Assembly: GCF_003201285.1 (NCBI RefSeq)
Contig: NZ_QICS01000001.1
Location: 644,678 to 708,677, forward strand
Length of the DNA: 64,000 nucleotides
Origin: Lachnotalea glycerini
GTDB lineage: Bacteria; Bacillota; Clostridia; Lachnospirales; Lachnospiraceae
Reading direction: 5' to 3'
Every line of letters starts with the position of its first letter. Position 1 is the first letter of the stretch. A program made the translations under genes and the position numbers. Shown here in pieces: positions 40,776-54,481 of the stretch. The notes under the pieces are model-generated. The model made no database searches, was not told where the DNA came from, and was given only the letters and a program-made list of their open reading frames with translations.

Positions 40776-41789
40776 TTACTCATCCTTCATTATAATATTT
40801 GCTTTGATTTTTTCATTAATTTTTTGATTCTTAAAAGCTACACATTGTATAATTGAGTTGGTAACTTCCTTGGCTTTAGAACTTCCATGAGTCTTTACTA
40901 CAAGTCCATTCAGTCCCAAAAGCGGTGCCCCGCCGTATTCACTGGCATCAAAGGACTTAAGAGTTGCTTTTAACGCAGGCTTAACAAGAAGTGCTCCTAT
41001 TTTACTCTTTAAAGATGACATCATACCATCTTTCATCATAGTCAATAAAGTTGCGCCAACACCTTCATATAATTTGAGGATAACATTTCCTACAAATGCC
41101 TCACATACTATTACATCCGCATATCCGCTTGGAATATTTCTTGCTTCAATGCTTCCGATAAAATTAATATCACTGCTTTCCTTCAATAAAGGAAACGTCT
41201 CCTTAACAAGCATATTTCCTTTTTCTTCTTCTGCCCCTATATTTACAATTGCAACTCTTGGATTTTTAATACCTACTACATTCTCCATGTAAATAGAACC
41301 CATTTTTGCAAATTGAACTAAATGCGATGCTCTGGCATCAACGTTGGCACCACAATCAACCAATAATGAAACTCCTTTAGCTGTAGGAATCAATGGAGCA
41401 AGTGGAGGTCTTTCTATTCCTTTTATTCTTCCAACTATTACCTGACCCCCTACAAGAATAGCTCCCGAGCTACCTGCTGATACAAGAGCGTCTGCCTCAT
41501 GATTTTTTACCATGTTCATAGCCTTTACTAAAGATGAATCTTTTTTTTGTCTTATCGCCATTACAGGTGGTTCTTCGGTTGCAATTACTTCTGTAGCATT
41601 AATTATTTCAAGTTGTTCTTTATTATATTCATATTTCTTAAGTTCTGCCTTAACAATCTCTTCTTTGCCAACAAGAAATATTTTAATATTGTTCTCCTTA
41701 TTTATTGCTTCTATTGCACCTTTTACGATTTCTCCCGGGGCATGATCCCCTCCCATAGCATCAACTGCCACTTTCACTATTTCTTGCAT
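40776..41789 (-). CDS. plsX: Phosphate acyltransferase PlsX
   Basis: Peripheral membrane enzyme of about 337 residues that makes acyl-phosphate from acyl-ACP for phospholipid synthesis. The N-terminus reads VKVAVDAMGGDHAPGEIVKG, the family signature, and later comes ALVSAGSSGAILVG. The start is ambiguous: the ATG at 41789 is 13 bases from AGGAGG, while a TTG at 41798 is only 4 bases from it; both give nearly the same protein. In many Firmicutes plsX follows rpmF directly; here an 11-gene cluster lies between them. Confidence 0.93.
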   Translation of the reverse strand: MQEIVKVAVDAMGGDHAPGEIVKGAIEAINKENNIKIFLVGKEEIVKAELKKYEYNKEQLEIINATEVIATEEPPVMAIRQKKDSSLVKAMNMVKNHEADALVSAGSSGAILVGGQVIVGRIKGIERPPLAPLIPTAKGVSLLVDCGANVDARASHLVQFAKMGSIYMENVVGIKNPRVAIVNIGAEEEKGNMLVKETFPLLKESSDINFIGSIEARNIPSGYADVIVCEAFVGNVILKLYEGVGATLLTMMKDGMMSSLKSKIGALLVKPALKATLKSFDASEYGGAPLLGLNGLVVKTHGSSKAKEVTNSIIQCVAFKNQKINEKIKANIIMKDE

Positions 41790-41929
41790 ATGAGTCAATT
41801 TCCCTCCTTGAATACCTAATAATCAATATACTAGATATCGATTTATAAATCAATATTTATTTTGATTATTTTCCAATAAATATTATATCTGACTCATTAT
41901 ACTGTATTATATCATTTTTAGATAACAAA

Positions 41930-41980
41930 AAGAGCCGTTGAAAAATGATTAATATAACCATTTGGACAACAGCTCCTCTT
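41930..41980 (-). terminator. Terminator of the long biosynthetic operon
   Basis: On the minus strand, an interrupted stem (AAGAGgaGC-GTTG ... CAACgGCTCTT) is followed by TTTTTG, about 30 bp after the CAT-like gene. It separates the cluster from plsX. Confidence 0.6.
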
Positions 41981-42008
41981 ATAACAAGCATAGTATAAAA
42001 TTACTATA

Positions 42009-42644
42009 TTACAAATATTTTTCAATATTGTAAAAATATTCTTGAACCTTTTCATAAAAACGGCTTAAATGTAATCCGTCCATTAGAGCATGATGTGCCT
42101 GTACTCCTAATGGTAGTTTAACTGTATCACCTATTTTCTCATACTTTCCCCACGCAATTCGTGGAATGGAATCGGCAGTTTTAGTATTGACCGGTTGTAT
42201 TACCTGGGTAAAAGCCAGCCATGGCACGCATGAAACAAAAATAAGATCATCTCTATCTGGTTCATGATAGATATCTATATTGCCACGCAGCTTTTCTGAT
42301 TCTATAACAGCTCTTTCATAGAATCTATTAAAATTCGCATCAAATTCAACCGTACAAAAATTAAAAGCATCTTCTACCGTCAGCAATGTATAAGAAGGAT
42401 GTATAATTTCATATTCTATTACCTTATCCTCTTTTAATCGATATCTAAATTCTGTTACAGAATTAGCTGCTTTCGAAACAAAAAATAAAACTGTTTTAAA
42501 AATTGAGAGATTTGTTTTTTTACAATAAAGATAAAGTTGTGTCATATCAACATTTACAGTAACTCCCATATACGGATAATCCATGTTTTTATATAATTGA
42601 TACAAATATTTTCTTGAAGATTTTTCTATATCCACATATTTCAT
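42009..42644 (-). CDS. CAT-like (chloramphenicol acetyltransferase fold) O-acyltransferase
   Basis: Trimeric-type acetyl-CoA acyltransferase of 211 residues. The catalytic His motif is HHALMDG at ~184-190, and the CAT-family core features FLYCKKTNLSIFKT-like and FVSCVPWLAFT-like stretches are present. Canonical CATs give chloramphenicol resistance, but many clostridial homologues of this length are not resistance enzymes. Here it is the last gene of the biosynthetic operon, so it may acylate the product as a tailoring or self-protection step. Drug resistance should not be assumed. Confidence 0.8.
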   Translation of the reverse strand: MKYVDIEKSSRKYLYQLYKNMDYPYMGVTVNVDMTQLYLYCKKTNLSIFKTVLFFVSKAANSVTEFRYRLKEDKVIEYEIIHPSYTLLTVEDAFNFCTVEFDANFNRFYERAVIESEKLRGNIDIYHEPDRDDLIFVSCVPWLAFTQVIQPVNTKTADSIPRIAWGKYEKIGDTVKLPLGVQAHHALMDGLHLSRFYEKVQEYFYNIEKYL

Positions 42645-42670
42645 TTTCTCTATTCCACCTTATGTAATTT

Positions 42671-44146
42671 TTAAAAGAAATCAAAATCATTTAATTCAAA
42701 GCCTAGTTCAGTCATTTGTTTATAATATGGAGATTTTACTGTCGCTTCTCTTGTACTTTTTTTCAATTCCTTTAGCCATCTTAAAGTATCCTCTTTAGTT
42801 TGATATGGCATATCATGAGTTACTAACTCGGAATAGATTCCATTTTCTCTTCTTTCTACCGTAGAGAATATTTTGAAATCATCATAATTATGAAAATATG
42901 CATTTATATTATATAAATGCCTGTTTTTATATAAATCAGTTTGTGGGAAAAGCAATAGTTGAGAAACTCTTTCTGTAAATACTCCCATTTTCGTTGTCTC
43001 TTTAATCGCTTCCTCAGTTAACCGAACGTCCTCTTTAGTCTCTCCCGGCAAGCTAATCAGCCACCATGCTGTTGATAAGGTTTTTGTTTTTCCTAATATT
43101 TCTACATCTGAATATATTTTATCCATGTTATGATAACGGTTCATATTTTTAGCAACTTTTTCAGAACCTGTTTCAATGCCATAGTCAACTGCAACTTTTT
43201 TAGCCGGAAAGGATTCTAACACTTCAAAAATATCTGAGTTGACATAGCCTGGCTCAATAAAAAAATGCATAGCATCCATTTTCAAATTATTCTTTTTAAC
43301 TAATTCCACATATTTTTCTATCGGTTTATTCCCATTTGCATAAAAGGAATCTTGTATCAAAATATTTGTTTTGCCTTCTTTTAAATATATTTTTAATTGC
43401 TCTACTAAATATTCAGGAGAATGAAAGTCACGTTTTCTTCTGCCCAAACGCCCAATATCATCTGCTTCTAAGCAATATGCACACTGCTGAGGACATCCTC
43501 CTCTAACCGTATCCAAAGCCGCAGCAAACGGTATAATATCACCCTTTGCAGGCTTTATTTTCGGCCATACAACGGAATGTGACATAAAAGGAAGATCATC
43601 GAGTTTTAGTTTGACTTCTCTTGGCTTAAACGAGACTTGATTCATGTCCTGATCATAAGTCATATATCCGGCTATATCCCTATCCAACTTACCGGTATTC
43701 TCTACTGACCTCACCAATTCATGAAGAGTCTCTTCTCCTTCACCCACAATTACTCCATCAATTATATCAAAATAACCTCTAACAATATCCTGTGCAAAAA
43801 AGCTGGCATGCTGTCCACCAATAACAATAGGAATATCTCCATATATATTTCTTATTAATTTCGCAGTTTCTAACATTCCTACGCTCTGATGAACCCACAT
43901 ATTCCCAATTCCAAACAAGACAGGCTTTCTTTCTTTGATCTTATTTATAACCTGTTCTACCGTATAACCGTTTCTTAATGCTTTTGCTAAATGTAAGACT
44001 TCTACAATATAACCCTTACTTTTAAGATAAGAAGCTAAGGCTAATAAGCCAATACTGTCAAACTGATCGAACAGCGCCGGCTGTATTTTTGCCAGCTTAA
44101 ATGATGTATGTGGCTGAATCAAACAAACATATTTATTCTTCTCCAT
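42671..44146 (-). CDS. B12-binding-domain radical SAM enzyme
   Basis: Cytoplasmic enzyme of 491 residues. Residues ~5-150 form a cobalamin-binding Rossmann domain (SIGLLALASYLKSKGY, VIGGQHASFFAQD); the radical SAM domain follows, with the 4Fe-4S cluster cysteines C218, C222 and C225 in CPQQCAYC. Related enzymes methylate unreactive carbon or phosphorus centres, or cyclise, using cobalamin and SAM. The lower-axial DxHxxG motif is not present, which is common in this class. It lies 2 bp after the methylthiotransferase-like gene, with which it probably acts in sequence. Substrate unknown. Confidence 0.88.
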   Translation of the reverse strand: MEKNKYVCLIQPHTSFKLAKIQPALFDQFDSIGLLALASYLKSKGYIVEVLHLAKALRNGYTVEQVINKIKERKPVLFGIGNMWVHQSVGMLETAKLIRNIYGDIPIVIGGQHASFFAQDIVRGYFDIIDGVIVGEGEETLHELVRSVENTGKLDRDIAGYMTYDQDMNQVSFKPREVKLKLDDLPFMSHSVVWPKIKPAKGDIIPFAAALDTVRGGCPQQCAYCLEADDIGRLGRRKRDFHSPEYLVEQLKIYLKEGKTNILIQDSFYANGNKPIEKYVELVKKNNLKMDAMHFFIEPGYVNSDIFEVLESFPAKKVAVDYGIETGSEKVAKNMNRYHNMDKIYSDVEILGKTKTLSTAWWLISLPGETKEDVRLTEEAIKETTKMGVFTERVSQLLLFPQTDLYKNRHLYNINAYFHNYDDFKIFSTVERRENGIYSELVTHDMPYQTKEDTLRWLKELKKSTREATVKSPYYKQMTELGFELNDFDFF

Positions 44147-44148
44147 TA

Positions 44149-45372
44149 TTATACTCCTGAATTTATGGTTTCTAAATATTTGCTCTGCTTGCTTCTATCT
44201 GGACAAATTGTATCCAAGCAATGTTGCCAATAAACATTATCATTCGTATTTGCTCTTAAACAGACTTCTTTTTTACAAAAAATAACCGCTTGCGATTTTT
44301 CTTCTTTATGTACTACGTATCCATTCTCTCCTAACTGACTTATGAAAAAATCAATTCTTCTCATTTTTTCCTGTTGTTCTATCTGACCGCTCATAGCTGC
44401 TGCCTTTGTCCCATCTTTAGGAGAAAATGCAAAGATGTGCCCCCAATCAAATTTTGTATCCAGAATAAATGCAACGCTTTCCATAAATTCTGACTCCGTT
44501 TCGGTTGGAAATCCAACTATAACCTCTGTTCCCAGAATAATATCAGGACTATACTTTTTAATTTCAATATAAGCTTCCTTTAATTGATGCACATCGACTT
44601 TTCGGTTCATTAAGTCTATAATTCTCTCACTTCCAGCCTGAATAGCTGAAACTATCATTCCTAGTTTATTCTTTTTTGCTGCTTCCAGTATACTATCGTA
44701 ATATTTTAACAGCCATTTAGGATGTAAGGAATCAATAAGTGCACTATAAGAATTTTCTTTAAACGGAAGAGCGGTGAGTAGGGTCGCAAAGCTCTCTTTA
44801 ATATCCAAACCATAAGCACCCACGTTATCTCCATTAATGACTACTTTATCAGCATCACTTTCATTAAATGCTTCCACCTCTGTCACACACTCTTCTACTG
44901 TTTTACTATGTAATTTGCCTACTGCCCATTTTGTTGCACAATATGAGCAATTTTCCGGACATCCTCGTGATACCTCAACACAAAAGTATTTGTCCCCCCA
45001 AGTCATATCATGTACTTCTTGAATATCAGAAAGTTTATGGAATTTACCGAATATGTCATCGAATTTTTCCAATTCAGTGTTTCTAATAACGGTACCTGTA
45101 AATATAGATTTCAATTTATCCACATCCGTGTCTGGTACACATCCTGTTACAATTATTTCCGCTGATATTTTTTTTGCACTCTCAATCTCATCTAATGCCA
45201 TCTTCGCAGTTTCATTAATAAAACCACAGCTCGTAACTACAATATAATCACTTTCTTCTTTTTTATTTGTTAACTCATAACCATTGGCTCTCAAATAAAC
45301 TTTTAATTTAGCCATATCCATTTCTCTGCGGCTACAATTTAAATTACAAATTACACATACCTTTAAGCTCAT
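44149..45372 (-). CDS. Methylthiotransferase-like (MiaB/RimO-type) radical SAM enzyme
   Basis: Iron-sulfur enzyme of 407 residues. The N-terminal UPF0004 domain keeps the three cysteines expected to hold the auxiliary cluster (CSRREMD near residue 13, SCGFINETA near 49, TGCVPD near 78), and the radical SAM cysteines are in RGCPENCSYC (138, 142, 145). The C-terminal TRAM RNA-binding domain of MiaB/RimO is not evident; instead there is a Cys-containing tail (FCKKEVCLRANTNDN). It would insert sulfur or methylthio groups, but loss of TRAM and its place in a biosynthetic operon suggest a small-molecule rather than tRNA or ribosomal substrate. Confidence 0.82.
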   Translation of the reverse strand: MSLKVCVICNLNCSRREMDMAKLKVYLRANGYELTNKKEESDYIVVTSCGFINETAKMALDEIESAKKISAEIIVTGCVPDTDVDKLKSIFTGTVIRNTELEKFDDIFGKFHKLSDIQEVHDMTWGDKYFCVEVSRGCPENCSYCATKWAVGKLHSKTVEECVTEVEAFNESDADKVVINGDNVGAYGLDIKESFATLLTALPFKENSYSALIDSLHPKWLLKYYDSILEAAKKNKLGMIVSAIQAGSERIIDLMNRKVDVHQLKEAYIEIKKYSPDIILGTEVIVGFPTETESEFMESVAFILDTKFDWGHIFAFSPKDGTKAAAMSGQIEQQEKMRRIDFFISQLGENGYVVHKEEKSQAVIFCKKEVCLRANTNDNVYWQHCLDTICPDRSKQSKYLETINSGV

Positions 45373-45472
45373 ATAACTTTTCGTTCATATGACATCTAAT
45401 ATAATGACATCATAAAAACTACTCCTTTCGTTTGATTTTAATATTTAGCACACCTTATATACAGTGTTTTGC

Positions 45473-46177
45473 TCACAAGTTATTTTTTATGAAAATTCCC
45501 CTTAAGACACTCCTATTTCCAATATTAATTTTTGTTTGGTATGAAAATGTATTACCTTCTGGCAACAAATAATTATCCTTTAAAATATCTAATATTTTAT
45601 GTTCTGGCAATAAAATCATATCCAATTGATCCGGTGTTTCGTATAGATAATCTTCGCTTTTCTTAATCAAATCTTTTTCTACGAAAGCATCGGTAAAAAC
45701 ATTCATGCATAGATGTCCTCCTCTCTTTAATATTCGTGATGTTTCTCTAATTGCTGTAATAAATTCTTCAACAGATGATGTATTATGATAGATTCCATTT
45801 GCCAAAACATAATCTATACTTTCATTTTCATAAGGAAGACTTAACATATTAGCTATTTTAAAGCTGACTTTTTCTGTTTCATTTAATTCCAGTAATTCAA
45901 TCTTTTTTCGCGCTGCTTCCAACATATTTTCATGTAAATCACATGCTAACACCTGAAATCCAAGTGATGCAAGCATATACGTGTTTCTGCCTCCACCACA
46001 TCCCAAATCTAAAACTGTATCATTTTGGGGTTCAACAACACAAGTAAAATAATCTTTCCAGTATAACGGAATACCTGCATTTGCAAATTCACTTACAATT
46101 TTGCTGCTATTCCAATAATCGTTTGCTTTTTCTTCACTTACTTTCTTCAATTTACTTCCTTTCCTTTTATCTTTCAT
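45473..46177 (-). CDS. Class I SAM-dependent methyltransferase
   Basis: Cytoplasmic methyltransferase of 234 residues. Motif I is VLDLGCGGGRNTYML near residue 57; motif II/III are LACDLHENML and PYENESIDYVLANGIYH, and a C-terminal cap follows. It overlaps the HAD gene by 11 nt, so it belongs to the same operon. The family covers O-, N- and C-methylation; nothing in the sequence fixes the acceptor. A second methyltransferase (53098-53811) opens the cluster. Confidence 0.85.
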   Translation of the reverse strand: MKDKRKGSKLKKVSEEKANDYWNSSKIVSEFANAGIPLYWKDYFTCVVEPQNDTVLDLGCGGGRNTYMLASLGFQVLACDLHENMLEAARKKIELLELNETEKVSFKIANMLSLPYENESIDYVLANGIYHNTSSVEEFITAIRETSRILKRGGHLCMNVFTDAFVEKDLIKKSEDYLYETPDQLDMILLPEHKILDILKDNYLLPEGNTFSYQTKINIGNRSVLRGIFIKNNL

Positions 46178-46976
46178 AAAAATAGTTTTCTATCAATTTG
46201 ATTACGGATAATCCTTGAGAATATTCTAATTGAATATCTGCATACCTTTGTAATTCTTTTGGTAAATTTCCTACTCCCACGCCAATCTTTGCATACTTTA
46301 ATAAGTCAAAATCATTCATATCATTGCCAAATGCAACCACCCTATGCTCTTTTAATTCTTGATACATATTAACTATTTTTTCAGCAGCTAAGCCTTTAGA
46401 AGCATGAGAAGATATAATTTCTATTATTGCCCCTGATGTATTATCGGCATCTTGAAATACAGATGCTTTCATCATCTTACCATTTTGTTTCATAAAGCTT
46501 TCATATACATTTTTTATTCTTTCTGGTTTATCTTTAAAAGCAATCGAAATTATTCTTTCAGATTTAAGCTTGTCTATTTTGACTATATCAGAGCTTCCAG
46601 CAATCTTATAATGATTAACTTTTCCCTTTTCATTTGTAACTAGTGAAACCTCAAAATTGTATAATTGCAAAAAAGATATGACAATTCTTACCACTTCATA
46701 ATTGATGTTCCAATCCCTTATTATTCGTCCTGTTCTAAAATCCACTATGGCAGCTCCGCCACATATTGCCACCGGGAGCGTAAATTCAATATGCTTCATA
46801 ATTTCCCTTGAGCTTCTATGATCTCTGGAAGTTATATACGTAAACTTGAGTCCTTTTTTCATCATATCATTTAGACTTTTGACAGCTTCCGGCTCCAGTT
46901 CATGGTTTTTATTGAGTAAAGTACCGTCTAAATCACTAATGAATAAATAATTTCCTTTCTTGTTTTTTTCTTTCAT
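46167..46976 (-). CDS. HAD-superfamily Cof-type phosphatase
   Basis: Phosphatase of 269 residues with the nucleophile motif ISDLDGTLL near residue 15, motif II TYITSRD, the Cof-type cap at ~80-190 and the metal-binding motif IV FGNDMNDFDLL. Cof-type enzymes dephosphorylate sugar phosphates and phosphorylated cofactors. Its position between the aminotransferase and methyltransferase genes suggests removal of a phosphate introduced by the GHMP-fold enzyme or carried by an intermediate. Four-base overlap with the aminotransferase gene. Confidence 0.85.
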   Translation of the reverse strand: MKEKNKKGNYLFISDLDGTLLNKNHELEPEAVKSLNDMMKKGLKFTYITSRDHRSSREIMKHIEFTLPVAICGGAAIVDFRTGRIIRDWNINYEVVRIVISFLQLYNFEVSLVTNEKGKVNHYKIAGSSDIVKIDKLKSERIISIAFKDKPERIKNVYESFMKQNGKMMKASVFQDADNTSGAIIEIISSHASKGLAAEKIVNMYQELKEHRVVAFGNDMNDFDLLKYAKIGVGVGNLPKELQRYADIQLEYSQGLSVIKLIENYFYER

Positions 46977-48034
46977 ATATTTATATTTCCTAACATTCTT
47001 TCCACCGCTTTATATAATTGAACAAAACTATCCTCATCACTATGAATTGTAATTCTTACTGCATTTGCAAATTCCAATCCCTTTTCTTCTTTTACCGAAA
47101 AGCTTAGTATATTTTCTTTCACCAGCAAATCCCATATACTTATACTATTATTGTTATATCCTATAATTAAGGTATTACTTAAGGAATTGCAAACATAAAA
47201 ATCAGTATTATTTGAAACAAGCTTTGTTAGCTGCATTTTGTGATCATCTATTTTTTTCTCCATATTCTTAAAGAGACTTTTCTTTAATATAAGCTTTTTT
47301 GCTAATAGAACAGAATAATTGCTAACTGGAAATACTGACTCTTGATCCTCTATTATTCGCTTGAATTTCTCGTCCATTGCAGCATAACCAAGTCTGATAC
47401 CCGGAAAGCCATAATATTTTGAAAATGTTCTAAGAATAATAAGATTAGGATAACTGATTCCATTTTCCAAAAGAGAATAGCTCTTTATATCACTCACTGA
47501 ATCCATGGAAGCTTCATCTACTATAAAAAGTATGTCTGACATTTTTTCCACTAATGTCTTTAATTGTTGCATTAAGAACCCTTTTCCGGTAATAGGATTA
47601 GGATTGGATATCCAAACCGCCTGACACTTTTTATATCTTATTTGTTGTTCTAATTTTTCAATATCTAATAATAATTCCTCTATACTGATAGGCAGAAATA
47701 AAAATTCAACATTATCTAATGTTTCATATATTCGATAAAAATTTGGTACTACAACGCCTACTTTTAGATTTTTTAGTAGGAAATTATTAATCTTCCATAT
47801 GATATCCTCAGAACCTGCTCCAACCAAAAAGTTCTCATTTGAATATTCCTCACTTAAAATTTTTTTTATTTCCTCATAATTTTCATCGGGATACTTATTT
47901 AAATATTGAAACACTTCATTTGGAGATAAGTCATTTATTAAATTAAATATCATATTGTCCTTATTGTAGCTTAATGAATAATCACTAAATTCCTCATTAT
48001 TGCGATATTTTTCATACAGACTTAAATAATTCAT
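46973..48034 (-). CDS. Class I/II PLP aminotransferase, HisC/CobD-like
   Basis: PLP enzyme of 353 residues. Conserved points are AGSEDIIW (phosphate-binding turn), SNPNPITGK near 143-151, the aspartate in IVDEAS near 173, the Schiff-base lysine K206 in TFSKYYGFPGIRLGY, and a C-terminal arginine in NAVRITI. This type includes histidinol-phosphate aminotransferases and the threonine-phosphate decarboxylase CobD. With a GHMP-fold kinase-like gene directly upstream, a phospho-amino-acid substrate is an attractive guess. Overlaps hadA-type gene by 4 nt; cluster member. Confidence 0.82.
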   Translation of the reverse strand: MNYLSLYEKYRNNEEFSDYSLSYNKDNMIFNLINDLSPNEVFQYLNKYPDENYEEIKKILSEEYSNENFLVGAGSEDIIWKINNFLLKNLKVGVVVPNFYRIYETLDNVEFLFLPISIEELLLDIEKLEQQIRYKKCQAVWISNPNPITGKGFLMQQLKTLVEKMSDILFIVDEASMDSVSDIKSYSLLENGISYPNLIILRTFSKYYGFPGIRLGYAAMDEKFKRIIEDQESVFPVSNYSVLLAKKLILKKSLFKNMEKKIDDHKMQLTKLVSNNTDFYVCNSLSNTLIIGYNNNSISIWDLLVKENILSFSVKEEKGLEFANAVRITIHSDEDSFVQLYKAVERMLGNINI

Positions 48035-48046
48035 ATTTTTTCTCCG

Positions 48047-49129
48047 CTATTTCATGTAATTAACTTTGTAAATGCCATTATTGATCTTCGTTTTTATAAT
48101 TTTCATATCTTTTTCTTTAAAAGCTTCCAAACACTTGGCTGAATTTTTAGTTATTGCAAATACTGCCGGTCCTACAGATGAAATTGATAGGACATCTACA
48201 TATTTTTCTGTTTTAAGAAAGGATAATTCATCCATTAAGCTGACCATACCGTTGTATGTATAGGAGCAATTTTGTATACTACCCATATTATATCTATAAT
48301 CGTAAATGACATCCCCTACCACTTCTAGATTTCCATTAATTGCGGAGGGTAGAAAATAATGTAACATATTAAAGGCAATTTCATTTTTATATTTCGTTCC
48401 GCAGTCCATAAACTTATCTAAGTTCTCTTTTTCATCGTCAAATTGACATTTCGAATCTATAAATACATAGTTGTCCGGAATTCCTATAATAACATCATAG
48501 TCCTCCTTGATATCAACCGATAAGATTACGGTACTTTCACCTGCCAATACTAATAATCCGCCGGTATGCAGACCCGAAGCGGCAGAGCCTCCAATACACT
48601 GAACGGGATTTAAATTAAAAGAATCATGATCTATTTCCTCCCCATAATTTTGAGCCAAATACCTTATTAATATGTCAGCCTCAATCGGGCAGCCAAACAA
48701 ATGATTAATTGCGGCGGCGGTTCCTGCTTGCAAGCATCCGGTTGAACCTAATCCACAATGCTTTAAATTATTGTAGTTTTTAATATTAACTTGAAAACCG
48801 CCCTCATATCCCAGTGCTTTCTTCATAATTAAACATGCATGTCTAATAACAGTTTCTCTATCTTTTATTTCCTCATTTACAACTATCTTTTCATCAGATA
48901 TGATACCTATTTCAATTTCTGCAAATATTTGAGTAGAAAAAACAACCTCTCCTGGAGTATATTTCATATTATTATTTTCTACAATCTTGCTAGGGTCTAT
49001 TGCCATTGCATTTAATCTCATGGGATAATCAATTGATATTTTTTGTCCTTGCAATTTAACAGGATTTCTACATATAATTGGATTAAACACCGTTCCTACT
49101 TTAAAATAATCAAAATTTTTAATTTCCAT
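48047..49129 (-). CDS. GHMP-kinase-fold enzyme, beta-RFAP-synthase-like
   Basis: Protein of 360 residues with the GHMP ATP-loop motif as KHCGLGSTGCLQAG near residue 130 (classical Pro-x-x-x-Gly-Leu-Gly-Ser-Ser) and a later glycine-rich stretch GGSAASGLHTGGLLV. By eye the arrangement is closer to beta-ribofuranosylaminobenzene 5'-phosphate synthases of methanopterin synthesis than to homoserine or mevalonate kinases, but a true kinase (for example PduX-like threonine kinase) cannot be excluded. GGAGG precedes the ATG. Central gene of the cluster. Fold confidence is good; reaction confidence is low. Confidence 0.6.
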   Translation of the reverse strand: MEIKNFDYFKVGTVFNPIICRNPVKLQGQKISIDYPMRLNAMAIDPSKIVENNNMKYTPGEVVFSTQIFAEIEIGIISDEKIVVNEEIKDRETVIRHACLIMKKALGYEGGFQVNIKNYNNLKHCGLGSTGCLQAGTAAAINHLFGCPIEADILIRYLAQNYGEEIDHDSFNLNPVQCIGGSAASGLHTGGLLVLAGESTVILSVDIKEDYDVIIGIPDNYVFIDSKCQFDDEKENLDKFMDCGTKYKNEIAFNMLHYFLPSAINGNLEVVGDVIYDYRYNMGSIQNCSYTYNGMVSLMDELSFLKTEKYVDVLSISSVGPAVFAITKNSAKCLEAFKEKDMKIIKTKINNGIYKVNYMK

Positions 49130-49147
49130 TTTTCCTCCATATCCCGT

Positions 49148-50209
49148 TTAGTAAATTCCGTTTACTGGTTCAAATATTAATCTTCCATTTTTCTCTTGAC
49201 AATTCATTTCTCTATCTATATAAAATTGTTTATTATGATACAATTTTATAATCCAATCTTCACAATATTTGATTTCCTGTTGTAAATTATCGCAATCAGA
49301 ATAATGCTGCAAAAACCCATCTAAACTGTTATTTGATATGAATATCCAATCTTCTGCTTTTAGTAAAGGATCAATACCTAACAAACGCATTAAATTTTCT
49401 TTAAATTCTCTGTTAAGATAAGTTTGAACTACTTCTTCCATCCAGGCTATTGGCTTAGAACGTCCTGTAATTTTGAAAAGATTAACGCCTAAGCTTTCGT
49501 ATACATACAAATCTTCGGGTCTAATAAAATTTGCCATTAGAAGCTGATAAGGATTTTGTATTTTGATTAAATTACATTTTTCATGAAACTTTCTATCATC
49601 ATTCCCCATTCCCAATTCGTTATAATGCTGCTCTCTATATGGGCATCTTCTCAAGCAGCTTTCATTCACCATAAGTTCTAATTGCATATTATTATTTTTT
49701 ACATAATCTAAAACCTTTCTCAAATCCTTAAAATTTCTATTTAAGTCGTGGTGTGCAATGATTTTAGCCGGGGATATTGATAAATAAGATTTTACATCCT
49801 CTATTGTTTTTATTCCTGCAATTGTTGAAACGTTAATTCTAATATCGGGATATCTCTTTCTTATATATTGCATCAGTTCTTTGGAAGATATCGTTAAGGA
49901 ATCTGCCTTAAACTCATTAATAATCCATTCCAGCTCCTCATCCAAAAACCTGCATGATTCTATTTCAATAGGTGTATTAATAAGATAAGCAAAAGAAATA
50001 TTATGTTCATCTAAAATTCTCTTGATTTGCAAAGCATTTTCTTTTGTTGTATTATGAGCGATTGCTAAAGACCGTCCCTGAGGCGTAATCCCGTTTGATA
50101 ACGCTCCATACATTTCTCCAATATGAATACCATTACTTTGTCTCAATCCAACTATTCTTTTTATACTTTCTAAATTCCATTGACATGGAACCGTCAACAT
50201 AGTTTTCAT
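49148..50209 (-). CDS. Peptidase U32/UbiU-like protein
   Basis: Protein of 353 residues resembling the U32 'collagenase-like' family: a TIM-barrel N-terminal part (LTVPCQWNLESIKRI, DSLTISSKELMQYIRKRYPD, INVSTIAGI) and a cysteine motif NESCLRRCPYREQHYNEL near residue 180, with a further Cys in HEKCNL. In UbiU/UbiV and TrhP relatives such cysteines hold a 4Fe-4S cluster used in oxygen-independent hydroxylation, and true peptidase activity is doubtful. Here it is likely a redox or hydroxylation step in the pathway. Starts two bases before the decarboxylase stop codon. Confidence 0.72.
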   Translation of the reverse strand: MKTMLTVPCQWNLESIKRIVGLRQSNGIHIGEMYGALSNGITPQGRSLAIAHNTTKENALQIKRILDEHNISFAYLINTPIEIESCRFLDEELEWIINEFKADSLTISSKELMQYIRKRYPDIRINVSTIAGIKTIEDVKSYLSISPAKIIAHHDLNRNFKDLRKVLDYVKNNNMQLELMVNESCLRRCPYREQHYNELGMGNDDRKFHEKCNLIKIQNPYQLLMANFIRPEDLYVYESLGVNLFKITGRSKPIAWMEEVVQTYLNREFKENLMRLLGIDPLLKAEDWIFISNNSLDGFLQHYSDCDNLQQEIKYCEDWIIKLYHNKQFYIDREMNCQEKNGRLIFEPVNGIY

Positions 50210-50210
50210 C

Positions 50211-51452
50211 CTAGTTATCCTTTCTGTTTACTTGGCTTATACGTACAATATCCTCAATAAAATAGTCTAAACTTTCCTTTGTGACATGGGGCATAATATA
50301 TATTTTGTAGCAGTAGTAATCTTGTCCTCTGTATTTAAGTATAAAACCATCCAGAATATATTTTTTTTCTAATTGATCAGATAATATTCCATCTTGTATA
50401 CAATTAAAATGAATGCATACCATGTTGGTTCCTTGGTCCGATATTACTTCTATGAGGTTTTTGCTTAATAATTGTTTTACCAGATATTCCTTTAAAATGA
50501 TTAATTTATTTAATTCACGCTTAAATCCTTCTTTTCCTAGATACTGAAACATAACCCAACATGTGGCGGCGGCGGCTCCGTTTCTTGAACTAATCAGTGT
50601 CTTATCATAAACCGTTTTAGCATACTTAATTGGAATAGCAATACTCTCTTGTAATGATTTTCTACAAATAAATATACCTGCTGAAAATGGAACATACCCC
50701 ATTTTGTGTGGATCAACCGTTAACGATTTCACACTTTTGTATTTGAATATACCCTCATTTTCATGTAAAAAAGGAAACACCAGTCCACCTATTGCAGCAT
50801 CTATATGAAAATAAAACTTAATACTATTTTCCATTTCATAATGTTGAATTAGCATATCTATCTTTTCTATATTATCTTTACTTCCAGTCATGGTATATCC
50901 CATTGTTGCAACAATTATAAAGCTTTTAACACCTAGGTTAATTTGGCTATTAATGATTGATTCCAGTTCGGCTAAATCCATTACATATTCGTCTGTATAA
51001 GAAATTGTTATTACATTGGATAAACTACATAAGCAACATGCTTTATCAATTGACTGATGGGTTAAATAGGACTTAATGACACAGCAATCCTTTCCCAATA
51101 ATTCTTTTCCAATCCAAGTACCCATTATATTTCCTTCTGTTCCTCCAGAAGTCACATATCCATCCACAGTATCATCGCCATATAAGTCCCCTAGCATCTC
51201 AATCAATTCTTTTTCCATTTTTCTTGTTTGGTCTAATTGGGTAAATACATTAGAAAAAACACCTACATGATTTTCATTATATTCCAAATAATTTTTATAC
51301 GTTTCCAATGCTATTGGATTCGGTATTGTTTGAGGATAACCCAAAAATACACTCTTTTCTTCAGAATTAATATAATTTTTTGGTGGATTCATATATGGCG
51401 TAAGCTTTTCTTTTGTTCTTCCTTCTTCAAGAAATTTCATCCTTTTATACAT
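50211..51452 (-). CDS. Group II PLP-dependent amino acid decarboxylase
   Basis: Decarboxylase of 413 residues. Conserved points are TSGGTEGNIMG (phosphate binding), FHIDAAIGG (aspartate to the pyridine nitrogen) and the PLP lysine in DPHKMGYVPFSAG (K250). The family contains histidine, tyrosine (MfnA-like), glutamate and aspartate decarboxylases; the short length and motif style suit the prokaryotic histidine or MfnA types. The ATG at 51452 is preferred over 51473 because AAGGAAGGGG lies five bases upstream. First gene of the long operon, with a strong promoter at 51542-51570. It probably supplies the amine precursor. Confidence 0.85.
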   Translation of the reverse strand: MYKRMKFLEEGRTKEKLTPYMNPPKNYINSEEKSVFLGYPQTIPNPIALETYKNYLEYNENHVGVFSNVFTQLDQTRKMEKELIEMLGDLYGDDTVDGYVTSGGTEGNIMGTWIGKELLGKDCCVIKSYLTHQSIDKACCLCSLSNVITISYTDEYVMDLAELESIINSQINLGVKSFIIVATMGYTMTGSKDNIEKIDMLIQHYEMENSIKFYFHIDAAIGGLVFPFLHENEGIFKYKSVKSLTVDPHKMGYVPFSAGIFICRKSLQESIAIPIKYAKTVYDKTLISSRNGAAAATCWVMFQYLGKEGFKRELNKLIILKEYLVKQLLSKNLIEVISDQGTNMVCIHFNCIQDGILSDQLEKKYILDGFILKYRGQDYYCYKIYIMPHVTKESLDYFIEDIVRISQVNRKDN

Positions 51453-51541
51453 AAAAGCCCCTTCCTTTTTCATAAATACAAATCAAAATAAGCAGAAAAA
51501 CGCAGCATTCAAGCCGTTTTAATGTTTATTTATATAGACAA

Positions 51542-51570
51542 ATTATAACAACATTCATCTTTATTTTCAA
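51542..51570 (-). promoter_or_regulatory. Promoter of the nine-gene biosynthetic operon
   Basis: TTGAAA (51565-51570), 17-bp spacer, TATAAT (51542-51547), about 90 bp before the decarboxylase start. Upstream, TTCGAC occurs twice as a direct repeat (51599-51604 and 51629-51634), 30 bp apart, a possible activator site. Confidence 0.65.
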
Positions 51571-51682
51571 GAAATTATTATCGCATCTTACGTTTTGTTT
51601 CGACTCATTTCAATTTTGCATATCTTAGTTCGACCTATTATGACTTTTATCATACGAATGATTGCCCATGCTGGACAAAAAA

Positions 51683-51714
51683 AACCAACAAAATCACATA
51701 GTGATATGTTGGTT
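51683..51714 (-). terminator. Terminator of the methyltransferase-MATE unit
   Basis: On the minus strand, AACCAACA ... TGTTGGTT with an inner ATCAC/GTGAT stem is followed by eight T. It lies 12 bp past the MATE stop codon and divides the cluster into two transcription units. Confidence 0.8.
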
Positions 51715-51725
51715 CTGAATGCCTA

Positions 51726-53081
51726 CTAAATATAATGATATATTTTTTTATATTTAATAATAAAAAAAACGGAAATAAATATTGTTGAAAACTCTGCTAT
51801 TGGAACAGCTAACCATACACCAATTATTCCAAATAGCTTTGCTAAAATGATAATACCTATTGTTATAAATCCAAATGTTCTCAAAAACGAAATAATTGCA
51901 GATATTTTTCCATTAGATAACGCTGTAAACATAGAGGAAATAAAAATATTAATTCCACTAAACAAAAAGCTAAGTGGAAATACTAAAAATCCCTCTTTCG
52001 TAATCTTATACACAGATGTATGTGAAGGAGAAAATACCTCTGCCAGATTTGGTGCAAATATAAATAGTAATGCACATATTAAAATGGATGTACAAATGAT
52101 AAACCGCAAACATATTGTTATGATTTTTTTAAGATTTTGTGAATTATTACTTCCAAAATTATAGCTTACTACTGGTGCGACTCCCATTGAAAAGCCAATA
52201 TACAAAGTAGATGCAAAAAACTGAGTGTAAATCATTATTGTAATAGCTGCAACTCCGTCTTCTCCTGCTAATTTCATCATTGTAATATTAAACAAAAATG
52301 TTGTAATAGCTGCAGCTAATTGACTTACCATTTCTGACGAACCATTTAAGCAGCTTTTTGCTATTACCTTAAAATCCACAATTGGTTTATTAAAATATAA
52401 AGTACCTCTGTTAATTATAAAAAATGCAAAGCCAATAATGGATGGAATCAGATAACCAATACCAGTTCCCAGCGCTGCACCTTTCATGCCCCAATGAAGC
52501 AATACAATAAACAAATAATCTAAAATTATATTTGCAACTCCTGCACTAATGGATAAGAACATACCCAGACTTGGTTTTCCGGCTGTAACAATTAGATTTT
52601 GAAATAATACTTGCAGCATACTTGCAGGTGTAAAAAGCAATAGTATATATAAATAGTCTCTACAATATGGATATAAAGATGAACTTGCTCCAAGAGCGAA
52701 TATAATAGAACGTAAAAAAATCAGTCCTACAACAGCAATCATACAACCAATTACGAAACCCACTAATATAATTAGTGTAAAGTCCTGTCTTGACCTTCTA
52801 TCTTCTCCTGCTCCCATTTTACAGGCTACAATAGCACTCCCTCCTGTCGCTAACATAGTCCCCAGACCTACAATAAAATTATTCAACGGACAAATAATAT
52901 TCATCGCAGATAATGCGTCCGTATTAATAAATCGCGCTACAAATATAGTATCAACAATAGTATATAATCCCATAAAAATCATCATTAAGATAGTAGGAAA
53001 TGCAAATTTTAATAATTGATAAACTGTAAATTCTTTTGCCAATGCATTATTGTTGCTGCATTCGTTAATTGTATCTATCAT
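51726..53081 (-). CDS. MATE-family efflux transporter
   Basis: Cation-coupled multidrug/toxin exporter of 451 residues with twelve hydrophobic helices in two similar halves (first half opening LLKFAFPTILMMIFMGLYTI, second from about residue 235). The acidic residue in the first helix region (YTIVDTIFVARFI) is typical. Genes of this type in clusters usually export the product. Coupled to the methyltransferase gene upstream (17-bp gap). Second and last gene of its transcription unit. Confidence 0.9.
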   Translation of the reverse strand: MIDTINECSNNNALAKEFTVYQLLKFAFPTILMMIFMGLYTIVDTIFVARFINTDALSAMNIICPLNNFIVGLGTMLATGGSAIVACKMGAGEDRRSRQDFTLIILVGFVIGCMIAVVGLIFLRSIIFALGASSSLYPYCRDYLYILLLFTPASMLQVLFQNLIVTAGKPSLGMFLSISAGVANIILDYLFIVLLHWGMKGAALGTGIGYLIPSIIGFAFFIINRGTLYFNKPIVDFKVIAKSCLNGSSEMVSQLAAAITTFLFNITMMKLAGEDGVAAITIMIYTQFFASTLYIGFSMGVAPVVSYNFGSNNSQNLKKIITICLRFIICTSILICALLFIFAPNLAEVFSPSHTSVYKITKEGFLVFPLSFLFSGINIFISSMFTALSNGKISAIISFLRTFGFITIGIIILAKLFGIIGVWLAVPIAEFSTIFISVFFIIKYKKIYHYI

Positions 53082-53097
53082 GATATTTTCTCCTCTA

Positions 53098-53811
53098 CTA
53101 TTTTCTGCATATAAAAGCTCCCATACGAAAATCTATCTTTGATAATCTTTTTACCATATGAAAGCCAGCCTTTTTGATTGCAGATAAATATTCTTTTTCT
53201 GTGAATAATGTAATTTGCTGCTTACTTTTATATTGATCAATTTTGCCATGATTGCTAATCAGATGATACATATCTACATCTACCTTTTTATTACTTATTC
53301 TTTTTACAGACTCCATATAGCAAAATTTAATAGTTTCAGTCTCTCCTGATCCATGATAAATATTTTCCTCAAAAGTTTCCTGCGTATCCCAAGGTGTTAA
53401 TATTAAAATCCCCCCATTTACCAAGCATCTAAAAGTACATCTTAAACCATTGACTAATTCATTATAATCATTAGCAAATCCAATACTGCCAAAAAGATTT
53501 ACTGCAACACCATATGTTTCATCCAACTCAAAATCAAACATATTTTTTTTGTAGAACTTACAATTTGGCATTTTCTGAATTGCCTTTTTTAGCATAGCCT
53601 CACTTAAGTCCATTCCTTCTATTTCAAAATTACTTGATAAATTTTTAGTCTGTTCTCCTGTTCCGCATCCCATATCCAAAAGCTTATTATTTCCGGATAT
53701 ATTAAATTCTTTAGAAATAGATATAATTTTTTCAGCCTCTTTTTTGTATTCTTCTTCATCAATATACATTGCATCATAATAAGACGCAATCGTATCGAAA
53801 TCTGCATTCAT
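53098..53811 (-). CDS. Class I SAM-dependent methyltransferase
   Basis: Methyltransferase of 237 residues. Motif I is LLDMGCGTGEQTKNL near residue 43; then GMDLSEAML (motif II), MFDFELDETYGVAVNLFGSI and GGILILTPWDT. The N-terminus begins with FDTIASYYDAMY, a common lid element of small-molecule methyltransferases. First gene of the short unit with the MATE exporter. AAGGAGG lies 13 bases upstream, further than usual. Acceptor unknown. Confidence 0.83.
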   Translation of the reverse strand: MNADFDTIASYYDAMYIDEEEYKKEAEKIISISKEFNISGNNKLLDMGCGTGEQTKNLSSNFEIEGMDLSEAMLKKAIQKMPNCKFYKKNMFDFELDETYGVAVNLFGSIGFANDYNELVNGLRCTFRCLVNGGILILTPWDTQETFEENIYHGSGETETIKFCYMESVKRISNKKVDVDMYHLISNHGKIDQYKSKQQITLFTEKEYLSAIKKAGFHMVKRLSKIDFRMGAFICRK

Positions 53812-53857
53812 AATGTATTTTCTTCCTCCTTTATAACTTATTTTTTTCTATAGAAAC

Positions 53858-53883
53858 TTTGTAATTGAAGAATAGATTACAAA
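53858..53883. promoter_or_regulatory. Inverted repeat in the methyltransferase-MATE leader
   Basis: TTTGTAAT-N10-ATTACAAA, perfect 8-bp arms, 47 bp upstream of the methyltransferase ATG. A possible operator or a leader hairpin. No regulator gene lies next to it. Confidence 0.4.
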
Positions 53884-53910
53884 TGGTAAACTATCTATAT
53901 ATAACTTTTA

Positions 53911-54144
53911 TTGACTATATTGATAAACATTTTTTATCTTATCATACATATTCAAAAAATAAAAGTGGAATACGAAAATTACAAAAAAATAACCCTGATA
54001 GAATTATCAAGATCATTGTTCCCTTTACTACACTCAGATAATCTCTTACCTTTTGATTTGTCGTACCATATTTTACGTGTCAGTGCTAATTTACTTGAAA
54101 TGGTTAAGCTAGATTGTGCTGATATTGTTAAAGAAATAAATTGA
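53911..54144 (+). other. Unidentified 77-codon frame, likely a remnant
   Basis: The only plus-strand frame at the cluster edge. It begins MTILINIFYLIIH and ends MVKLDCADIVKEIN. The second half looks more protein-like than the first, and a GTG inside (VEYENYKK) could be the start, but no ribosome binding site is evident and I recognise no family. It lies between the cluster and the rpmF terminator, where insertion debris might be expected. Confidence 0.25.
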
Positions 54145-54181
54145 TGTTACAAATAGGTAAAATTAGATTTTATAACAAAAA

Positions 54182-54211
54182 ACAAGGGATGATATTGTTT
54201 CAAACCCTTGT
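54182..54211 (-). terminator. Terminator of rpmF
   Basis: ACAAGGG ... CCCTTGT stem with a 16-base loop; on the minus strand it is followed by TTTTTTG. It lies 20 bp after the rpmF stop codon, so rpmF no longer reads towards plsX. Confidence 0.75.
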
Positions 54212-54231
54212 CTTTACTAGCTTTTAGCTAA

Positions 54232-54411
54232 CTAATCAACTGAAATAATTTCTTTTTTGTTGTAAGATCCGCAAGCCTTACAAACTCTATGAGGCATCAT
54301 TAAAGCACCGCACTTGCTGCATTTTACTAAATTTGGAGCACTCATTTTCCAATTAGCTCTTCTTTTATCTCTTCTCGATTTAGAAGATTTATTCTTTGGA
54401 CAGATAGACAT
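54232..54411 (-). CDS. rpmF: Ribosomal protein L32
   Basis: Small zinc-ribbon protein of the large ribosomal subunit, 59 residues: SICPKNKSSKSRRDKRRANW at the start, then two Cys pairs CSKCGA and CKACGS that bind zinc. The ATG at 54411 has AAGGAGG seven bases upstream; a frame two codons longer (GTG) lacks spacing. Follows the DUF177 gene as usual, but plsX, its common downstream neighbour, is 12.4 kb away. Confidence 0.95.
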   Translation of the reverse strand: MSICPKNKSSKSRRDKRRANWKMSAPNLVKCSKCGALMMPHRVCKACGSYNKKEIISVD

Positions 54412-54481
54412 GGTCACACCTCCTTATTATTCAATAAGTTTCAAAAGTATTATTGAATGATTCCAATTCAATAATATTGAA

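Follow-up and report, generated by a model that had tools for sequence, protein, structure and literature searches.

A TRAM-less methylthiotransferase-like protein in a conserved nine-gene operon of Lachnotalea glycerini, a probable small-molecule enzyme

Methylthiotransferases (MTTases) of the MiaB, MtaB and RimO families (TIGR00089) have in common a UPF0004 domain, a radical S-adenosylmethionine (SAM) core and six cluster cysteines. MiaB and RimO use two molecules of SAM per turnover, one methylating a sulfur on the auxiliary cluster and one making the radical; further MiaB-like clades with unassigned function have been named before. The window analysed here, a stretch of 64,000 nucleotides from contig NZ_QICS01000001.1 of Lachnotalea glycerini, encodes a 407-residue MTTase-like radical SAM protein within a nine-gene operon, hereafter the cassette. 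This protein has no detectable TRAM domain and its gene is followed by one for a B12-binding radical SAM protein. It is quite likely, in our judgement, that the protein is a fourth, diverged MTTase that has exchanged tRNA or ribosomal protein S12 as its substrate for a small metabolite built by the products of the operon. The known substrates of MTTases, according to the excerpted text of a 2023 study, are only tRNA and S12 (PMC10702137); the same excerpt describes the enzyme for 17(2)-methylthio-F430 as awaiting identification and reports that a tested candidate did not act on F430. Methylthio-cytokinins are treated as formed on tRNA in the available portion of PMC7680852, and the portions of PMC9177418, PMC13063428 and PMC8326336 mention methylthiotransferases only where ribosomal proteins are discussed or among the references. 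No small-molecule methylthiotransferase appeared in the titles and abstract beginnings among the matches listed from the openly licensed PMC literature.

The cassette protein and the housekeeping methylthiotransferases

A preliminary description of this DNA, made from the sequence alone, had presented the protein as MiaB/RimO-like, and the coordinates, the lengths, the six cluster cysteines and the 2-bp spacing between the two radical SAM genes that it gave are exact. Pfam finds UPF0004 (PF00919; 51.1 bits, cut-off 27) and Radical_SAM (PF04055; 60.2 bits, cut-off 29.5) above their gathering scores. The auxiliary-cluster cysteines are C13, C49 and C78 and the radical SAM cysteines C138, C142 and C145, and all six are invariant in the 16 proteins compared (four cassette and 12 housekeeping proteins). 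The peptide CPENCSYC is present in two of the other cassette genomes, designated G553 and G1043. The predicted overall fold is likewise that of the family, as an AlphaFold model (two alignment rows, mean predicted local distance difference test (pLDDT) score 58.4, used for overall fold only) has MtaB (9a6d), MiaB and RimO as its best structural matches, at TM-scores near 0.5.

Unlike MtaB, MiaB and RimO, the cassette protein falls below both the subfamily and the equivalog cut-offs of NCBIfam. It scores 222.8 bits against the subfamily model TIGR00089, and the other three cassette proteins score 231.6, 223.2 and 216.7 bits, all below the cut-off of 251. Against the MiaB, MtaB and RimO equivalog models it reaches 145.9, 182.2 and 177.2 bits (cut-offs 355.3, 357.05 and 356.95), and its likeness to e-MtaB, the archaeal and eukaryotic tRNA MTTase (TIGR01578), is a profile match of 168.8 bits over residues 13-335, where the cut-off is 314.7; each of these four scores is about half of the equivalog cut-off or less.

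The genome of L. glycerini (4,862,006 bases, 48 contigs, completeness 97.92%) holds separate genes for three further full MTTases above their NCBIfam cut-offs, MtaB (457.2 bits), MiaB (527.1 bits) and RimO (509.1 bits), and the 407-residue protein is not its sole MiaB or MtaB. Each of the other three cassette genomes also encodes three further proteins above the TIGR00089 cut-off, which group with MiaB, MtaB and RimO in a tree of the 16 proteins (477 of 522 columns, e-MtaB left out). The cassette proteins form a separate group in this tree, occupying one side of a branch (support 100/100) outside MiaB, MtaB and RimO, each of which likewise occupies one side of a branch. They are 21-26% identical to MiaB, MtaB or RimO, compared with 27-35% among those three. 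Across the 16 proteins 27 columns are invariant, the six cysteines included, and a further 20 are fixed only in the 12 housekeeping proteins; in the cassette set 11 of the 20 are fixed as something else (in one case a gap), and the other nine vary, two of them still keeping the residue in some proteins. The sequence I-x-P-x-x-R-G-x-x-R-S, which follows the radical SAM cysteines in 12 of 12 housekeeping proteins, has lost four of its six signature residues, all within these 20 columns, in all four cassette proteins, and only the Gly and Ser stay.

No match to TRAM or TRAM_2 (Pfam) was found in any of the four cassette proteins, at E<=0.1 for the window protein and E<=10 for the other three. Profile-profile comparison of the C-terminal tails (hhalign) gave 0.1-0.2% for the cassette proteins against MiaB, MtaB and RimO, and 91.8%, 77.3% and 6.2% for the control pairs MiaB-MtaB, MiaB-RimO and MtaB-RimO; with the 25 preceding residues included, the cassette proteins gave 9.4-31.3% against the three families, over 15-25 columns at the start only. 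Instead of TRAM they have a cysteine-rich tail, whose pattern K-E-E-K-S-Q-A-V-I-F...C...N-x-[YF]-W...C-x-D-T-x-C is kept in four of four proteins, and the tail therefore does not look like a decaying TRAM. Its cysteines C371, C385 and C390 occur in all four and C366 in two, being replaced by Ser in G553 and G1043, which weakens the idea that four tail cysteines hold a third cluster. The structure model predicts a mixed tail of two strands and short helices.

The B12 radical SAM gene starts 2 bp after the stop codon of the MTTase-like gene. Its 491-residue product contains a B12-binding domain (PF02310, 58.2 bits) and Radical_SAM (PF04055, 41 bits), both above their gathering scores, an architecture which we take to be that of the cobalamin-dependent radical SAM enzymes, the "class B methylases". 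The CxxxCxxC motif is kept in all four copies, and the protein stays below the cut-offs of the named NCBIfam models (best TIGR04190, 109 of 500 bits). Because the two genes adjoin in each of the four cassette genomes, their pairing is more than chance. The back-to-back placement of the pair and the apparent lack of TRAM, both put forward in the preliminary description, are thus borne out, the latter by Pfam and by profile comparison with controls.

A nine-gene operon in four genomes

The genes of the cassette run in one direction and in the same order in four of four genomes: pyridoxal phosphate (PLP) decarboxylase, U32, GHMP, HisC/CobD-like, HAD, methyltransferase, MTTase, B12 radical SAM and CAT-like (Table 1). 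Identity to the window copy is 62-72% for the MTTase, 71-73% for the B12 enzyme, 66-70% for the GHMP protein, 55-59% for the decarboxylase, 51-59% for the U32 protein, 50-58% for the methyltransferase, 53-55% for the CAT-like protein, 42-46% for the HisC/CobD-like protein and 34-36% for the HAD phosphatase. The listed TTG start of the HAD gene in G553 and G1043 omits the first motif, which in G553 is present in the open frame upstream. The promoter-like site is the best of its scan, in which the number of sites was not above that in shuffled sequence (72 versus 76.1).

Table 1. Cassette genes and adjoining features, with positions in the window
Feature	Coordinates	Strand	Length	Remarks
Second class I methyltransferase	53098..53811	minus		
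MATE efflux transporter, perhaps exporter	51726..53081	minus		
Promoter-like site	51542..51570	minus		TTGAAA-17-TATAAT with TG, ~70 bp before first gene
PLP amino-acid decarboxylase, MfnA-like	50211..51473	minus	420 aa	DPHK motif in 4/4
U32-family protein	49148..50209	minus	353 aa	Cys 9, 185, 189, 212, 316 invariant in 4/4
GHMP-fold protein, weakly beta-RFAP synthase-like	48047..49129	minus	360 aa	H-x-G-L-G-S turn and Arg38 invariant in 4/4
PLP enzyme, HisC- and CobD-like about equally	46973..48034	minus	353 aa	
Cof/HAD-IIB phosphatase	46167..46976	minus	269 aa	least conserved of the nine
Class I SAM methyltransferase	45473..46177	minus	234 aa	
TRAM-less MTTase-like radical SAM protein	44149..45372	minus	407 aa	UPF0004 + Radical_SAM
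B12-binding radical SAM protein	42671..44146	minus	491 aa	CxxxCxxC at 218-225
CAT-like acyltransferase	42009..42644	minus	211 aa	HHxxxDG motif in 4/4

The cassette is rare, with four carriers found: L. glycerini, Eubacterium ramulus, G553 and G1043, all of the same class and belonging to three genera and two families. A scan of the contigs of 84,980 species, from which records very close to that of the window may be missing, gave 117 matching stretches, and the one relative confirmed was E. ramulus ATCC 29099 (73% identical); G553 and G1043 were not returned despite the query peptide CPENCSYC, being either absent from that collection or missed. Absence of the cassette elsewhere is judged on samples of whole genomes, which overlap. 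The MTTase search found only the own genome among 61 (E<=1e-40), and the own genome and E. ramulus among 397 of the family (E<=1e-50); the B12 enzyme profile found the own genome alone among 392 of the order. The GHMP profile matched two of 245 genomes in the class (own and G553), two of 11 in the family of G553 (G553 and G1043) and, in the phylum, six of 398, of which five gave weak matches (E 1e-17 to 1e-21) and belong to other classes. The loci of two of these five weak relatives (L025:6984-10812 and L026:1718-5988) hold, in place of the cassette, a beta-RFAP-synthase-like GHMP gene beside genes that, read from the sequence, are TrpF-like or encode a zinc alcohol dehydrogenase and a DhnA-type aldolase. 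Plasmid carriage was likewise set aside, since all 53 records matched had less than 60% identity (24.0-28.4% among the matches listed).

The E. ramulus cassette continues with genes for DAHP synthase and SAM synthetase, and this genome has two genes of each family, the second copies lying elsewhere; the second DAHP synthase was found by Pfam profile only, the protein query finding the cassette copy alone. The largest intergenic gap measures 100 bp in the window cassette and 80 bp in that of E. ramulus; in G1043 (200 bp) and G553 (577 bp) it lies before the CAT-like gene. The G553 gap, between the B12 and CAT-like genes, contains a broken class I methyltransferase gene (L016:4676-5198), which resembles the second methyltransferase of the window at 40% identity over the first 99 residues and 33% over the last 76, the middle being missing. 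A methyltransferase of this type may therefore have been a more widespread part of the cassette in the past, which suggests a former tenth cassette gene. Around the other cassettes, G1043 has at most a trace of such a relative and none was seen in E. ramulus; no match to the MATE gene (E<=1) was found in the stretches analysed around the other three cassettes.

Proposed function and alternatives

The neighbours of the MTTase-like gene, encoding a C-riboside-synthase-like protein, a U32 protein, two PLP enzymes, a phosphatase, a methyltransferase and an acyltransferase, point to a small-molecule pathway. Together with the conservation of the nine genes as a unit and the DAHP synthase and SAM synthetase genes in E. 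ramulus, this context supports the earlier suggestion of a small-molecule substrate rather than tRNA or the ribosome. As the cluster cysteines are kept, chemistry of the MiaB/RimO type is plausible in the cassette enzyme, with other conserved parts changed. If the enzyme works as MiaB and RimO do, the (methyl)sulfide would sit on the N-terminal cluster, and the radical SAM cluster would make a 5'-deoxyadenosyl radical that opens a C-H bond, to which S-CH3 is transferred. We infer from these features the chemistry, substrate and product of the enzyme, and on this basis the product would bear a methylthio group. The B12 enzyme would methylate rather than perform other radical chemistry, and it probably C-methylates the same molecule. 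A metabolite substrate, if true, would be of a new kind for the family, and a dedicated TRAM-free MTTase with a fixed place in a metabolite operon would illustrate how these enzymes can be turned to small molecules. The cassette MTTase also offers a sequence signature for finding further such enzymes, and the operon flags an undescribed natural product in anaerobes, E. ramulus among them. With tRNA and S12 as the only substrates given in the excerpt of PMC10702137, the cassette makes the open question of MTTase substrates testable.

A tentative suggestion for the scaffold is an aryl or heteroaryl C-riboside. The GHMP-fold C-riboside synthases ForT, PyfQ and beta-RFAP synthase are the best NCBIfam family match of the operon GHMP protein; the G553 copy scores 46.0 bits against NF040726 (cut-off 328), and a homoserine kinase model covers 95 residues of the window copy with 31.8 bits. 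When placed by hand against ForT as described in the excerpt of PMC8183095, the GHMP protein shares the His, Gly and Ser of the pyrophosphate turn with the same spacing, a pair of Ser three apart and an invariant Arg, whereas it has Cys in place of Arg135 and Gly in place of Thr106, and the distances between the elements differ. ForT, which the same excerpt relates to homoserine kinase, was not among the PDB matches of the GHMP profile, and a kinase role alongside the CobD-like enzyme, similar to that of homoserine kinase or PduX, is a conceivable alternative. The U32 relatives UbiU and UbiV are 4Fe-4S proteins that carry out hydroxylation in the absence of O2, according to the available text of PMC6747719; the operon protein resembles UbiU, UbiV and TrhP in its U32 domain and conserved cysteines, whereas its C-x3-C-x22-C with a distant Cys differs from their motifs. 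NCBIfam describes TrhP, a tRNA hydroxylase, as prephenate-dependent, which would fit the DAHP synthase in the E. ramulus operon. Such a route would draw on 5-phosphoribosyl pyrophosphate (PRPP), aromatic precursors, SAM, PLP and acyl-CoA. PRPP and an aromatic carboxylate of the chorismate pathway would be joined by the GHMP protein, and the phosphate would be cleaved off by the HAD enzyme; amination or decarboxylation would fall to the PLP enzymes, hydroxylation to the U32 protein and acylation to the CAT-like enzyme. Likewise tentatively, the cassette proteins may be a further MTTase clade whose substrate is a free small molecule; this could be an aryl C-riboside, a C-nucleoside-like compound that would form without oxygen from PRPP and an acid derived from chorismate. 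Paired with a B12 radical SAM C-methylase, they would then be the family's first metabolite enzymes.

Several observations weigh against a diverged MTTase acting on a metabolite. The Pfam test for TRAM is weak taken alone, since MtaB of the window genome gives no match either; absence by Pfam was for this reason dropped as sole evidence and the profile-profile comparison added, which can itself miss, as the low value for the true pair MtaB-RimO indicates. TRAM loss is only suggestive, because the specificity of MiaB/MtaB chimeras is not determined by TRAM, as reported in the excerpt of PMC10702137, and RimO bears TRAM and acts on a protein. The tree is small, with 16 sequences and no e-MtaB, and its program warns of long branches meeting. 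The argument from SAM synthetase is weak because G553 and G1043 also carry two, outside the cassette. The match of the GHMP protein to beta-RFAP synthase (NF040726) is weak, with 44.9 of 328 bits over 280 residues, the sole sensible PDB match of its profile is homoserine kinase (E 0.0036), and its structure model (pLDDT 46.8) is too poor for a structure search. The U32 protein matches TrhP weakly (17.5 of 534 bits) and UbiU equally (17.9 of 440). The stretch with the radical SAM pair (42-46 kb) has a guanine-cytosine (GC) content of 33-36%, like the flanks.

Some of these points bear on the alternative that a horizontally acquired operon brought in an additional methylthiotransferase for tRNA (or rRNA), one with a novel RNA specificity. 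The closest predicted fold matches are indeed MtaB and MiaB, all cluster cysteines are kept, specificity is not set by TRAM (PMC10702137, in part) and the U32 neighbour weakly matches TrhP; but a TRAM-like tail is lacking, the seven neighbours besides the U32 protein have their best NCBIfam matches in metabolic or generic enzyme families, the same nine genes occur together in all four genomes, and these genomes already have tRNA MTTases, so that we hold this explanation to be improbable. Small-molecule chemistry without methylthio transfer, that is, sulfur insertion only or another radical reaction, with any methyl coming from the B12 enzyme or the class I methyltransferase, would account for the altered residues near the radical SAM cysteines in four of four proteins and for the new conserved tail cysteines, and two other presumably methylating enzymes adjoin; the retention of all three cysteines of the sulfur-carrying auxiliary cluster speaks against it and leaves it a slim chance.

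A peptide or protein substrate, either S12-like or belonging to a ribosomally synthesised and post-translationally modified peptide (RiPP), has a precedent in RimO. B12 radical SAM enzymes occur in RiPP clusters, and the larger gaps before the CAT-like gene in G1043 and G553 could be counted in its favour. Against this, two of the four cassettes, in the window and in E. ramulus, leave scant room for a precursor, the sole open reading frame of at least 20 aa touching the window gap is on the opposite strand, the G553 gap holds the broken methyltransferase rather than a precursor, and no RiPP recognition or precursor family is among the Pfam and NCBIfam matches listed. U32 is named a peptidase in Pfam, yet its studied relatives are Fe-S hydroxylases in the excerpt of PMC6747719. 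A RiPP cluster is unlikely, and a peptide or protein substrate in general is very improbable.

Genomic setting of the operon

The operon and its two upstream genes sit between rpmF (54232-54417) and plsX (40776-41798), both named by eye. GC content is 30-31% over 45-54 kb, compared with mostly 33-38% outside, and no MTTase match at E<=1e-40 was found in the two congeners searched; the operon was likely gained horizontally. One congener (G001) has a single gene of 219 aa in the gap between rpmF and plsX, and the other (G002) has a 433-aa gene beside plsX, its locus ending before rpmF. The stretch beside plsX (41798-54232 in the window; L055 and L056) thus carries different cargo in three congeners, namely the operon, the 219-aa gene and the 433-aa gene, and may be an insertion hot spot.

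Elsewhere in the L. glycerini genome, outside the window, five further matches to the MTTase query lie within about 31 kb (G000:C1:220132-254264, loci L005-L009). Two of these, at L005 and L007, are radical SAM genes of 467 and 437 aa, B12-type by eye, beside TetR-like and nitroreductase-like genes, and the region is perhaps another radical-SAM-rich cluster.

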